Shown here: positions 3,134 to 18,300 of the stretch, in pieces | Numbering within the stretch: the stretch's first letter is position 1 | Layout: each line of letters opens with the position of its first letter | From: a virus | Length of the DNA stretch: 21,906 nucleotides | Direction: 5' to 3' (one strand) | IMG/VR virus record: IMGVR_UViG_3300030389_003465 | Location: 1 to 21,906 of that record | The notes under the pieces: model-generated | The model's database searches: none | What the model was told of the DNA's origin: nothing | The model's input: the letters and a program-made list of their open reading frames with translations, nothing else | Program-made: the position numbers and the translations under genes

Positions 3134-3563
3134 TCAAGAAGCTTTTTATAGCGACTTAATTATTGGTAAAAACATTGAACAAAAAGTTCTTTCTTCAATA
3201 CAAAAAAAATATCCATCAGCTGTTTTGATACCTAGAAAATTTTCTAAGTATGATATTTTTGTGCCAGAAGTAGATAAAAAAATTGAAGTTAAGTTTGATT
3301 ATAAATCACAAGAAACAGGCAACATTTTAATAGAGTTGTTTATGTTTAAAAAACCATCAGCACTGTTAGCGACTGAAGCAGATTATTGGGCTATAGATAC
3401 AGGCAAAGAAATAATGTGGACCACACCAAAAAAAATACTTGAATGTATTTTAATTAACAATATAAAGTCACAAAAAATTACAGGGGATGGAGATACACAA
3501 GCCAAGATAGCTTGTTTGATTCCTATAAAATTATTTAAGAAATACACTGTGAATACATTTTAA
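3105..3563 (+). CDS. PD-(D/E)xK-family nuclease
   Basis: A 152-residue protein with the core of a PD-(D/E)xK nuclease: YDIFVPE (Asp50), a short turn, then the IEVKFD strand (Glu61, Lys63), followed by QETGNILIEL and an ADYWAI strand. The K-Y-D...E-V-K...T-G-N order is shared by small phage nucleases that act as endonucleases or junction resolvases. It would cut phage DNA during recombination or packaging, but the exact substrate is unknown. Its ATG lies inside the previous gene (29-base overlap), with only a weak GAGG-like site directly before it. Translation probably depends on the upstream gene. Confidence 0.7.
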   Translation: MTTRNYKKNSQEAFYSDLIIGKNIEQKVLSSIQKKYPSAVLIPRKFSKYDIFVPEVDKKIEVKFDYKSQETGNILIELFMFKKPSALLATEADYWAIDTGKEIMWTTPKKILECILINNIKSQKITGDGDTQAKIACLIPIKLFKKYTVNTF

Positions 3564-3573
3564 TCAAAAGATT

Positions 3574-3620
3574 TCACACAATTGTCACAAAACTATTTGG
3601 AATTATTTGTAATTGTGTGA
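3574..3620. promoter_or_regulatory. Inverted repeat overlapping a promoter, operator candidate
   Basis: TCACACAATT (3574-3583) plus ACAAA (3587-3591) is matched by TTTGT (3606-3610) plus AATTGTGTGA (3611-3620). This makes a 15-pair dyad with one three-base bulge and a 14-base loop. The right arm covers the spacer and first bases of the -10 box of the promoter for the gene at 3661, and the loop covers most of its -35 box. That placement suits a repressor operator better than a terminator, because no T run follows. Confidence 0.5.
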
Positions 3621-3624
3621 TACA
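3597..3624 (+). promoter_or_regulatory. Predicted promoter with shared GTAATnGTrTGATAC element
   Basis: TTGGAA (3597-3602), a 16-base spacer and GATACA (3619-3624) form a sigma-70-like promoter for the gene at 3661. The stretch TGTAATTGTGTGATACACTC recurs with few changes before the genes at 4243 and 18335. Each copy lies 34 to 42 bases before a start codon with an AAGGAG or AGGAG site. This points to a common phage promoter type. Confidence 0.65.
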
Positions 3625-3660
3625 CTCACAACTTAAACAACAATTCATATAGGAGAAAAT

Positions 3661-3945
3661 ATGAAAAATAAAAAACAAAAAATAGATTATGGAATGTCTG
3701 CAGAAATGCTAGATAACGTAGTTTATTATTCAGGTCCAAACTATAAATACACTTTAACTGATGAAAGTTTTCACAATCATAAAACTTTAGTAGTTGCACA
3801 AAAACATTTAAATATTTTAGAAAATAACACAGGTCTATCTGAGCAAAAATTGAAAAAACAAATTATTGAAGAATGGTTTTCTGCAGAAAACGAATCAGTT
3901 CGAGAAGCTAACAATAAAAAAAGGAGAGAAAAAAATGGGTCCTAA
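3661..3945 (+). CDS. Small charged protein of unknown function
   Basis: A 94-residue protein I do not recognise, first gene of the operon driven from about 3597 and preceded by AGGAG. The first half has aromatic residues (VVYYSGPNYKYTL) and a possible beta hairpin. From about residue 45 it is helical and charged, with an amphipathic stretch (LSEQKLKKQIIEEWF) and a Lys/Arg-rich end. There is no signal peptide or membrane segment. Its 3' end overlaps the next small gene by 11 bases, and that gene's ribosome binding site (AAGGAG) lies inside it. Confidence 0.75.
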   Translation: MKNKKQKIDYGMSAEMLDNVVYYSGPNYKYTLTDESFHNHKTLVVAQKHLNILENNTGLSEQKLKKQIIEEWFSAENESVREANNKKRREKNGS

Positions 3946-4018
3946 AGATTTTATTATTTTCCTGTTATCTGTCTGGCTGCTTTTTTTATTATTTAATACG
4001 GAATTTTATTTGAAATGA
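3935..4018 (+). CDS. 27-residue single-span membrane peptide
   Basis: A short frame with a strong AAGGAG site at 3921-3926 and ATG at 3935. It encodes MGPKDF, a run of about 16 hydrophobic residues (IIFLLSVWLLFLLF), then NTEFYLK. This is a single membrane helix with short polar ends, so it probably sits in the host inner membrane. It overlaps the gene before it by 11 bases, and its stop TGA lies in an ATGA that could start the next frame. Small membrane peptides in phage early regions often modify host functions, but none can be named here. It is well below normal gene-calling length. Confidence 0.6.
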   Translation: MGPKDFIIFLLSVWLLFLLFNTEFYLK

Positions 4019-4170
4019 TTTTGGTTAAAGATAAGGGTACCTCCAAAAATCGGTGCTTTCCCTCTGGTGTCGTATCTAGGCAAATGTGTGTGATACCTGT
4101 ACCCTTACACCACGAAACATTAGTGGTACATGAATGTGGGTTAATTTGCCACAGAGGGAGCTCAAATTAA
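4015..4170 (+). CDS. Possible 51-residue cysteine/histidine-containing peptide
   Basis: An ATG overlaps the previous stop (ATGA at 4015-4018) and opens 51 codons ending at TAA. The product contains four Cys (CFP, MCV, ECG, ICH) and several His. However, the same DNA holds long complementary segments and is about 47% G+C, well above its neighbours, and its third codon positions do not follow the A/T preference seen in nearby genes. The stretch may be a structured RNA rather than a gene. I regard coding as the less likely reading. Confidence 0.25.
   Translation: MILVKDKGTSKNRCFPSGVVSRQMCVIPVPLHHETLVVHECGLICHRGSSN
4032..4161 (+). ncRNA. Candidate structured RNA with pseudoknot potential
   Basis: This stretch is about 47% G+C within AT-rich surroundings and holds several complementary pairs. 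TAAGGGTAC (4032-4040) pairs with GTACCCTTA (4099-4107). GTATC (4072-4076) pairs with GATAC (4092-4096) inside it. ACCAC (4109-4113) pairs with GTGGT (4123-4127). CCCTCTG (4060-4066) pairs with CAGAGGG (4152-4158). GGCAAAT (4079-4085) pairs with ATTTGCC (4144-4150). The last two pairs cross the first, which gives a pseudoknot. It matches no ribozyme or riboswitch class I can recall by motif. It sits between two operons, downstream of the membrane-peptide gene and upstream of the promoter near 4174. Confidence 0.45.
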
Positions 4171-4173
4171 ATG

Positions 4174-4201
4174 CTTGTGTCATTTGTAATCGTGTGATAC
4201 T
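4174..4201 (+). promoter_or_regulatory. Predicted promoter, second copy of shared element
   Basis: CTTGTG (4174-4179), a 16-base spacer and GATACT (4196-4201) precede the gene at 4243. TTTGTAATCGTGTGATACTCTTAA is almost the same as the stretch at 3606-3629. Similarity extends beyond the -10 box, then becomes A/T-rich until the AAGGAG site. It probably restarts transcription for the genes from 4243 through the integrase. Unlike the first copy, no matching left arm of an inverted repeat is seen upstream. Confidence 0.65.
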
Positions 4202-4242
4202 CTTAACACATAAACCATTAAATAACATATTAAGGAGAAAAA

Positions 4243-4506
4243 ATGGAATATAGCAACTTCAAAATACAAATCCAATTACCTGACGGGTCCAAGCAATTAG
4301 TTTGGGAGCAAACTGTAGAAGGAGATATTGAAATCAATAAAGAGATGGATGCTTATGTCAAAGAGCTGGAAGCAGACGGACATAAAGTAGTTTATGCAAA
4401 GAGGGCAGTCTTTGGCGGCAAGAGTCTCTTCAATGACTTTAAAGAAAACAAACCTGAAAACTTTGTTGGCAGAATATTTAAGAACACAATTGTTAAGTTG
4501 AAATAA
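4243..4506 (+). CDS. Small unknown protein, first gene of third rightward operon
   Basis: An 87-residue protein I do not recognise, preceded by TAAGGAG. The N-terminal half looks like paired beta strands (FKIQIQLPDG, KQLVWEQTVEGDIEI). A helix follows (KEMDAYVKELEADG), then another strand (HKVVYAKRAVF) and a basic tail. A small alpha/beta fold in the cytoplasm is likely. Its stop codon shares one base with the start of the zinc-ribbon-like gene (TAATG at 4504-4508), so the two are probably translated together. Confidence 0.75.
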   Translation: MEYSNFKIQIQLPDGSKQLVWEQTVEGDIEINKEMDAYVKELEADGHKVVYAKRAVFGGKSLFNDFKENKPENFVGRIFKNTIVKLK

Positions 4507-4679
4507 TGGAATTAATTATTTATGAAAACGGAAGAATCACAGGTATCAAATATATTTGTGACGAATGCTCGGAACAAGTAACAGAAGATGAAGGTCTTTG
4601 GTCTGTAAAAGAAACTCAAATTTGTACGGAGTGTTTTAAAGAAAAACAAAGAGAAGAGAGAAAGAAAAATGGAAGATAA
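4506..4679 (+). CDS. 57-residue zinc-ribbon-like protein
   Basis: A short gene beginning in the stop of its upstream neighbour (TAATG). The 57-residue product has CDEC (Cys18, Cys21) and CTEC (Cys40, Cys43) separated by 18 residues, the classic four-cysteine zinc ribbon layout, followed by a Lys/Arg/Glu-rich tail. Small zinc-ribbon proteins of phages often bind nucleic acid or host polymerase, but the partner here is unknown. It overlaps the next gene by 11 bases and contains that gene's ribosome binding region (AGAGAGAAAG). Confidence 0.65.
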   Translation: MELIIYENGRITGIKYICDECSEQVTEDEGLWSVKETQICTECFKEKQREERKKNGR

Positions 4680-4863
4680 TTCTAAGATATACAAATTACC
4701 AGAAAGCAGCTGGAGAAAAATACTACAGCACAGACATTTGTCAGAAAGATTTGTAGCTTTAAAAGAAGCAGAGATTGCAGCAAAAAATCCAGAGTTCAAA
4801 AAAATGTGGAATGAAAAACTAAAACAACTTCTTAATAAAGATGACGAAGGTATGATGCAATGA
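4669..4863 (+). CDS. Small helical unknown protein
   Basis: A 64-residue protein I do not recognise. It is mostly helical and charged, with a KLPESSWRKILQHRHLSERF segment and a C-terminal KKMWNEKLKQLLNKDDEG stretch. No membrane segment or cysteine motif is present. It starts inside the zinc-ribbon gene and shares ATGA with the large gene at 4860. Its place in a tightly overlapped series supports it as a real gene; its function is open. Confidence 0.65.
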   Translation: MEDNSKIYKLPESSWRKILQHRHLSERFVALKEAEIAAKNPEFKKMWNEKLKQLLNKDDEGMMQ

Positions 4864-6227
4864 GGGGTAATAGATTAAGAAACAAGCAACAACTTTCAAG
4901 CGGGTTTTATCATGCACATGATGTTCTTAGTTTAGCTGATTTAAATAATGCTACATGGTCTCAAGGGCAGCAAGTAAGTAAAAAATTTAAAAATAATTAT
5001 ATTGATTTAATTAATCTCAACATGCTAGGAAATATGGCGGGTCTTAAACAAACTGCACCTGATTATGATTTCAATAATTCTTTAGAAAAGTTCATTAGTA
5101 TTTGTGGAGACGAATATGACAAGTGGCTCAAATCACAAAAGTACACTTACAATCTGACAACCTTGTTAGATGTGATGCCTAACAACACTACAGTCAATAA
5201 ATTTTTTGAGGACATAGTGATAAGAGTTCCATCCGAACAATGCTTGATAATTAAAGAACATCCTTTTTTTACAACTATAGTTGCTATGGAAGAATATCCT
5301 AAAGTTGAAAAACATAATCACATAAAAGATTTAATAGCAAAAAGGTCACAAGATTCTAAAACAGCTTTGAAAAGTTTTGACCAAATGACAAACTTTGAAT
5401 TTGACTGCTGGTTAAGATGCACAGTTACTTTCTCTTATTGTTTGGATGATGAGACAAAGAAAAATATATTAAATGATAATTTAGACCGTGAACTTAAAAA
5501 TGTATTGACGGGCAGAAAGTCTTTTTTTCTCCCCCAAGAATTTTGGATTCCAATTGGTAATCAGGTCAAAGTAAGTATGCTCGACAATGGTCTTATCTTC
5601 CCTTTACCTTTAATGCCTAATGACCCTTTTTCTGCTTGGGAACAAAACATACCAAATATAATTACACATTTATATAACCCAAACAGGGTTGTGGAAGCGG
5701 GTTACAAAAGCATTTATAAAGATGAATTTGTAGACAGTGCAAAACAGGAAAGAAAAGCCAGAGTTAAAAATTACACTGACACTGATTTTTCAAAAGAAAT
5801 AACTTCACCTCTCATGTCTACTTCGGAACATGTTTTGAATACTGTTATTGGCATTGGTATTTTATTCAACCCTGATTTTAAAGATGCTTGTGTTAGCTGC
5901 AAGAAACAAGGCTTTGTACAACCAAGCAACAAACAGTTTAACAAAGACAATCCTTATAAAAACAGACCTTCACATAAACCTAAGTTTGAGCATTACATAG
6001 TTTCATTAAACATACCTGACGAAGTTTCAACTGAATCAAAAACACAAGGTCACAAGAAAAGATTGCATTACAGAAGAGGGCACTTAATGAGGTCTACAAG
6101 TAAGAATGCTGTCAATGGCTTTGTTTGGAGAAAAGCTTGTTGGGTTGGTAACAAAGAAATTGGTGTAGTTACAAAAGACTATATCGTGAATGTAGATAAA
6201 GAAATAGGTCAATTAGAAACAGTATGA
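4860..6227 (+). CDS. 455-residue orphan with C-terminal RRGH module
   Basis: The largest rightward gene in the window, encoding 455 residues of no family I can name. The first 300 residues look like a mixed globular domain with many aromatic and acidic residues. Near residue 345 there is a CVSCKKQG pair of cysteines. The C-terminal 60 residues read KRLHYRRGHLMRST...WRKACWVGNKEIG, a His/Arg-rich motif (HYRRGHxxR then WVG) that I have seen at the ends of other phage hypothetical proteins. It overlaps both neighbours by ATGA. Its place before the integrase hints at replication or lysogeny control, but nothing in the sequence proves that. Confidence 0.8.
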   Translation: MRGNRLRNKQQLSSGFYHAHDVLSLADLNNATWSQGQQVSKKFKNNYIDLINLNMLGNMAGLKQTAPDYDFNNSLEKFISICGDEYDKWLKSQKYTYNLTTLLDVMPNNTTVNKFFEDIVIRVPSEQCLIIKEHPFFTTIVAMEEYPKVEKHNHIKDLIAKRSQDSKTALKSFDQMTNFEFDCWLRCTVTFSYCLDDETKKNILNDNLDRELKNVLTGRKSFFLPQEFWIPIGNQVKVSMLDNGLIFPLPLMPNDPFSAWEQNIPNIITHLYNPNRVVEAGYKSIYKDEFVDSAKQERKARVKNYTDTDFSKEITSPLMSTSEHVLNTVIGIGILFNPDFKDACVSCKKQGFVQPSNKQFNKDNPYKNRPSHKPKFEHYIVSLNIPDEVSTESKTQGHKKRLHYRRGHLMRSTSKNAVNGFVWRKACWVGNKEIGVVTKDYIVNVDKEIGQLETV

Positions 6228-6337
6228 AAACTAAAATTAAACATGCAGGAAAGTTATCCCAAAAGAGCTTGGATAATATAAGACATCAATTAAAAAAAAG
6301 GAGAAAAATAAATGAAGACTTGGAAAGAAGCACTTAA
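6224..6337 (+). CDS. Possible 37-residue basic peptide before integrase
   Basis: An ATGA overlap at 6224-6227 opens a 37-codon frame ending inside the integrase gene, a 26-base overlap with its start at 6312. The product is strongly basic (KTKIKHAGKLSQKSL, QLKKRRK) and could form one helix. It contains the integrase ribosome binding site (AAGGAG at 6299-6304), so its translation could tune integrase expression. A very small excisionase-like factor is conceivable, but no winged-helix pattern is visible. It could also be a chance frame. Confidence 0.4.
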   Translation: MKTKIKHAGKLSQKSLDNIRHQLKKRRKINEDLERST

Positions 6338-7112: not shown

Positions 7113-7126
7113 TGACTAGACCTTCG

Positions 7127-7190
7127 GCAGGGCAAGAGATTTTTTCATATTTTTCTCCCCTAAATAGGTTATGTTAATAGCTTGTCCTGC
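7127..7190. terminator. Inverted repeat between convergent gene blocks
   Basis: GCAGGGCAAG (7127-7136) faces CTTGTCCTGC (7181-7190), ten pairs with one G-T mismatch, across a 44-base T-rich loop that includes TTTTTT and TTTTT runs. It fills the gap where the integrase block and the leftward virion block meet. It may help end transcription from either side, though the loop is long for an intrinsic terminator. The attachment site of an integrase is often next to its gene, so part of this gap could be attP; no tRNA-like 3' end is visible. Confidence 0.35.
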
Positions 7191-18272: not shown

Positions 18273-18300
18273 TTTGCATTGGATGTAATAGTATGATACA
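18273..18300 (+). promoter_or_regulatory. Predicted promoter of embedded cassette, third shared element
   Basis: TTTGCA (18273-18278), a 16-base spacer and GATACA (18295-18300) form a promoter for the gene at 18335. ATGTAATAGTATGATACACTTA matches the elements at about 3608 and 4185 closely in sequence and spacing. This is strong reason to think the cassette is expressed in step with the left-half operons and against the flow of virion transcription. Confidence 0.65.

Follow-up and report, generated by a model that had tools for sequence, protein, structure and literature searches.

In the HDV ribozyme the strands follow the order P1, P2, P3 hairpin, P1', P4 hairpin and P2'. The HDV ribozymes fold as a nested double pseudoknot (PMC8256844). 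In temperate phage early operons the nascent RNA can itself act in cis, as in HK022, in which about 270 nt separate the PR start from the downstream putR site (PMC9378689). A third group of related systems is formed by the orphan RNA motifs of metagenomes (Weinberg et al. 2010, PMC2864571), to which no function has been assigned. The element analysed here lies at positions 4032-4161 on the plus strand of the window, i.e. the whole stretch of 21,906 nucleotides that was studied, which is a 21.9-kb virus record. Similar to the put RNA, it would be a structured RNA within a temperate phage early transcript, about 410 nt from a promoter motif at 3608. The put RNA is about 70 nt long and has two adjacent stem-loops (PMC9378689), whereas the present element has 130 nt with three crossing helices, and a terminator was not recognised near it. 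The put RNA is the closest functional precedent, with a different architecture. With the orphan motifs the element shares that it is noncoding, covarying, without assigned function and from uncultured marine sequence; it differs in being outside the 4227 families of Rfam 15 and in being found in one phage clade only.

The plus strand of the window encodes an ERF-type annealing protein, a YqaJ/RecE-type exonuclease and an integrase (int), the last being 2.1 kb downstream of the RNA element, and the late region is on the minus strand. The internal virion protein is about 30% identical to that of temperate-type podoviruses, e.g. Vibrio phage douglas 12A4, and the virus is called a putative temperate podovirus on the basis of this match. 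No isolate was found to match at the DNA level. The element is followed by o87 (4243-4506, plus strand), an 87-aa protein of unassigned function, and by o57 (4506-4679, plus strand), a small Cys-rich protein, both of which accompany the RNA in all six versions known. The structure prediction of o87 had a pLDDT of 70 and gave no convincing fold match. The interval from o152 to int (3563-6312) is a variable cassette slot, in which close relatives differ in gene content with syntenic flanks. The same slot holds a 455-aa protein (4860-6227, plus strand) carried by only part of the clade; PHROG, Pfam, PADLOC and PDB sequence searches gave no match for it, and structure modelling from three sequences gave nothing usable. 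A toxin-antitoxin RNA was dropped as a candidate, the 455-aa gene being missing from other carriers.

The helices of the element were located in the window by an exact-helix search. P1 is formed by TAAGGGTAC (4032-4040) and GTACCCTTA (4099-4107) with 9 bp, and is followed by the linker J1/2 (4041-4058), in which CTCC and TGCT recur in all lineages. P2 pairs TCCCTCTG (4059-4066) with CAGAGGGA (4152-4159). The third long helix, PK, has 7 bp and joins GGCAAAT (4079-4085) to 4144-4150, crossing both P1 and the P3 hairpin. The P3 hairpin (4067-4096) is drawn tentatively, as 4067-4071/4092-4096 or alternatively 4072-4076/4092-4096, with 86-90% of cells paired and two-sided changes in neither version. 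The P4 hairpin (4109-4127) has 5 bp in the window (4109-4113/4123-4127, ACCAC/GTGGT); it is replaced by GTCAT/ATGAC in L002 and by AGGG/CCCT in L004, it was aligned by hand to fit, and is not significant alone (such hairpins are expected in 27-53% of shuffles; P 0.27 and 0.53). The initial annotation, made from the sequence alone, had listed complementary pairs of 9, 7, 7, 5 and 5 bases; all were found, one of the 7-base pairs (P2) being actually of 8 bp. Its claim that two helices cross the 9-bp helix was borne out beyond chance, for both P2 and PK cross P1. A helix of at least 9 bp alone appeared in 2.7% of 20,000 dinucleotide shuffles, three disjoint helices of at least 7 bp in 0.19%, and three such helices totalling the observed 24 bp in 0.01% (about 2 of 20,000). 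The nested minimum-free-energy fold was unremarkable (z of -1.58 for the plus strand and -0.31 for the minus strand), which is expected because the strongest helices cross one another. The raised G+C content noted earlier was also seen, with 45% over 4028-4165 compared to about 22-35% in most neighbouring stretches.

Protein and pattern searches revealed the element in seven further viral contigs, all of uncultured podoviruses, giving six distinct sequences including the window. These form three lineages, the first with the window, L003, L010 and L012, the second with L002, and the third with L004, which is identical in L008 and L009. P1 differs among the three lineages and yet is complementary in each, being AAGGGTAC/GTACCCTT in the first, GGTCTC/GAGACC in L002 and GAGTCTC/GAGACTC in L004, and its place directly behind the P3 hairpin is constant. 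The probability of such a helix given shuffled arms was 0.02 for L002 and 0.005 for L004, each taken separately. Five pairs of P1 changed on both sides, and in P2, which was paired in 100% of cells, one pair changed from C-G to U-A. Counted on a hand-trimmed structural alignment of six sequences in three lineages, and so on few events, 11 pairs had changed on both sides, compared with a mean of 4.3 in shuffles, and none of 500 shuffles reached 11. The paired cells came to 94.1% against 87.1% in shuffles (0 of 500 reached this value) and 38-47% in slid controls. The initial annotation had proposed a pseudoknotted RNA between two early operons, had called for homologues and a covariation check, and had named absent covariation as grounds for giving the proposal up; the covariation found in the six versions supports the proposal. 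Since the relatives have changed paired bases on both sides and can still pair, the 130-base stretch most likely gives rise to an intricately folded RNA, whose family is small and previously undescribed.

The core of the RNA consists of two invariant blocks, TATCTAGGCAAATGTGTGTGA (4073-4093), which comprises the P3 loop and part of its stem, and GGTTAATTTGCCACAGA (4138-4154, plus strand), which comprises the PK 3' strand and the start of the P2 3' strand; the blocks are joined by PK and together amount to 21 + 17 = 38 invariant nt, part of this identity being due to ascertainment, as the core pattern had served to find several loci. Protein-based searches, in which the core was not used, gave no carrier with a changed core. 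For comparison, fourfold-degenerate sites of four nearby genes were identical between the window and the L004/L008 lineage at 109 of 208 positions (52%), that is 41/74 in int, 16/36 in o152, 48/84 in the exonuclease and 4/14 in o87. PK is invariant in all six versions and cannot be tested by covariation; its support is therefore that the two invariant blocks would share a 7-bp match by chance with a probability of only 0.9%. G·U pairs occur in P1 of L003 and in P3 of four versions, and as they would be C·A on the other strand, the plus strand is modestly favoured.

The distribution of the element was narrow. It was present only in clade members whose integrase is at least 84% identical, and about 30 relatives with an integrase of 70-74% identity and synteny on both sides were without it, as judged by sequence and covariance model. 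All carriers had o87 and o57, and no relative without the RNA showed either gene. When viral contigs were scanned with patterns in which the 7-bp PK was masked or the remainder relaxed, the same six versions and chance hits were returned; a scan of genome contigs with a 14-base core gave chance matches only, and blastn against phages and plasmids gave no match. A descriptor of the pseudoknot alone was much too unspecific for AT-rich DNA. The covariance model, whose P3 pairs are one column off with minor effect since the score is mostly sequence, was run on the relatives, whole clade contigs and 754 genomes from two bacterial classes, and found no carriers other than the known ones. An integrase search for the host in the same 754 genomes gave one distant hit only. 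The Rfam scan suggested earlier was carried out with lax filters on three versions against the 4227 families of Rfam 15, and yielded chance-level hits only, none at the gathering cut-off.

The position of the element relative to promoters gave an insight into its possible role. The motif TGTAATNNTNTGATAC, a recurring imperfect palindrome that is conserved in carriers, has three copies in the window against 0.02 expected (3608-3623, 4185-4200 and 18284-18299, all on the plus strand), each before an early operon, and is likely an early promoter with a repressor operator. Of the plus-strand promoter candidates recognised upstream of the RNA, the copy at 3608-3623 is the nearest. The copy at 4185-4200 (TGTAATCGTGTGATAC) follows the RNA end, i.e. 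P2, by 26-28 nt in all six versions although the spacer sequence varies. As this copy is downstream, transcripts started at 4185 would lack the RNA, which would instead be included when transcription reads through from 3608. This speaks against a simple leader riboswitch of o87; a role in read-through or where the first transcript ends is favoured. Of the regulatory, riboswitch-like and self-cleaving options of the initial annotation, the riboswitch-like one was weakened by this position; the others are weighed below.

The crossing helices, the compensated P1 and P2, the invariant core, the constant motif spacing and the constant company of o87 and o57 make it very probable that the structured RNA at 4032-4161 is real. 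That it represents a narrow new family of plus-strand RNA, putatively cis-acting on early transcripts, is judged on balance probable, and its assignment to a cis-acting function at the operon boundary is more tentative. In the proposed mechanism, the RNA would be part of the transcript started at the motif near 3608, would fold during transcription where that early operon ends, and would act in cis where the o87 operon adjoins. Its invariant loop may bind RNA polymerase, a protein or a small ligand, and this binding would tune the read-through, processing or stability of the early transcript. An intrinsic terminator on the plus strand, consisting of a GC hairpin and a T run, was not found at the element, and none was recognised between the RNA and o87, so that an antiterminator would be without a visible local target.

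A trans-acting phage small RNA is an unlikely alternative. It would be transcribed from its own promoter or processed out of the upstream early transcript at its 3' end, and would regulate host or phage messages or bind a protein. In its favour are the stable compact fold, the exposed invariant loop rich in GTGTGTG and the location at an operon end, the genes of this operon differing from phage to phage. Against this, neither a promoter just upstream nor an intrinsic terminator just downstream of the RNA was recognised. A DNA-level element is less probable again. The tight link to the downstream promoter could reflect a role in DNA, and the constant spacing, the integrase 2.1 kb downstream and the restriction of carriers to the most similar integrases would suit an attP core, a replication origin or protein-binding sites upstream of the o87 promoter. 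However, the compensating changes in P1 and P2 would be needless for double-stranded DNA sites, and the G·U pairs favour RNA. Two further observations make attP less likely. An inverted repeat immediately 3' of int is conserved in carriers and in most non-carriers examined and is a better candidate for attP or a terminator, and no tRNA was found in the loci.

It is improbable, slightly more so than a DNA-level element, that marine temperate podoviruses process or gate their early transcript by a new class of catalytic or ligand-sensing RNA, whose nested pseudoknot is HDV-like and whose core differs, loop 3 being paired to J4/2. A self-cleaving ribozyme with the HDV helix arrangement, cutting the early transcript between the two operons, is the more doubtful of these two. 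The strand order is that of HDV, with a P1/P2 pseudoknot enclosing the P3 hairpin and P4 between P1' and P2', and the P3 loop and the strand from P4 to P2 (J4/2) have invariant bases at the places of the HDV active site. In contrast, P1.1, the G-C pairs from loop 3 to the P1/P4 junction, is missing, and the junction is C, AAAA or AA by lineage and contains no conserved G; a 7-bp helix joins loop 3 to J4/2 instead. The base of P1 is U-A in four versions or G-C in L002 and L004 and not G·U, P1 is of 6-9 bp with ragged outer ends, J1/2 is long, and the HDV models of Rfam were unmatched. Lacking P1.1 and a G·U at the P1 base, the element was not assigned to the HDV-like ribozymes; the likeness is one of topology, as had been proposed from the outset. 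A short protein-coding gene of 51 codons can practically be dismissed: the frame is open at 4015-4170 (plus strand) and its ATG is kept in four versions, but it is shifted by a one-base insertion in L012, runs past the stop in L010, is without a start in L002 and stops after CAAGGG in L004, PHROG and Pfam gave no match, and block 2 is identical even where it is out of frame or behind the stop, so that coding does not explain the conservation and the frame is not the conserved unit, in accordance with the initial annotation.

If the preferred reading of a cis-acting structured RNA is true, the marine temperate phages of this uncultured clade have a compact double-pseudoknot RNA, absent from the libraries and fixed at the junction of two early operons. 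It would be a naturally evolved addition, with a different core, to the few HDV-like crossing RNA folds, and would point to RNA control of the lytic or lysogenic early programme in phages of ocean bacteria. The element is small enough for probing, cleavage tests and crystallisation.

Some other features were observed in the vicinity. A frame for a hydrophobic peptide of 27 codons (MGPKDFIIFLLSVWLLFLLFNTEFYLK) lies at 3936-4018 (plus strand), its stop overlapping the ATG that begins the 51-codon frame. L010 and L012 share this overlap, and in L003 the hydrophobic frame at that place is a different one. In non-carrier relatives, a second conserved noncoding element occupies the same variable slot just upstream of int (5840-6001 in L251, and also in L250, L249, L266 and L267). 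Its sequence, TGCCCAGCGG ... CCG(C/T)TCATTGAGGG-TGGCTC-CCCAAG(AA)GGCAAAACGAGC, is partly duplicated and contains the complementary segments GGCTC/GAGCC and TGCCC/GGGCA; the L251 version had no Rfam match, and the element may be a structured RNA or an attP region. The inverted repeat directly downstream of int is located at 7117-7190 of the window, reads GCAGGGC ... GTCCTGC with variants in relatives, and is kept in most phages compared, which makes it a candidate attP or bidirectional terminator.
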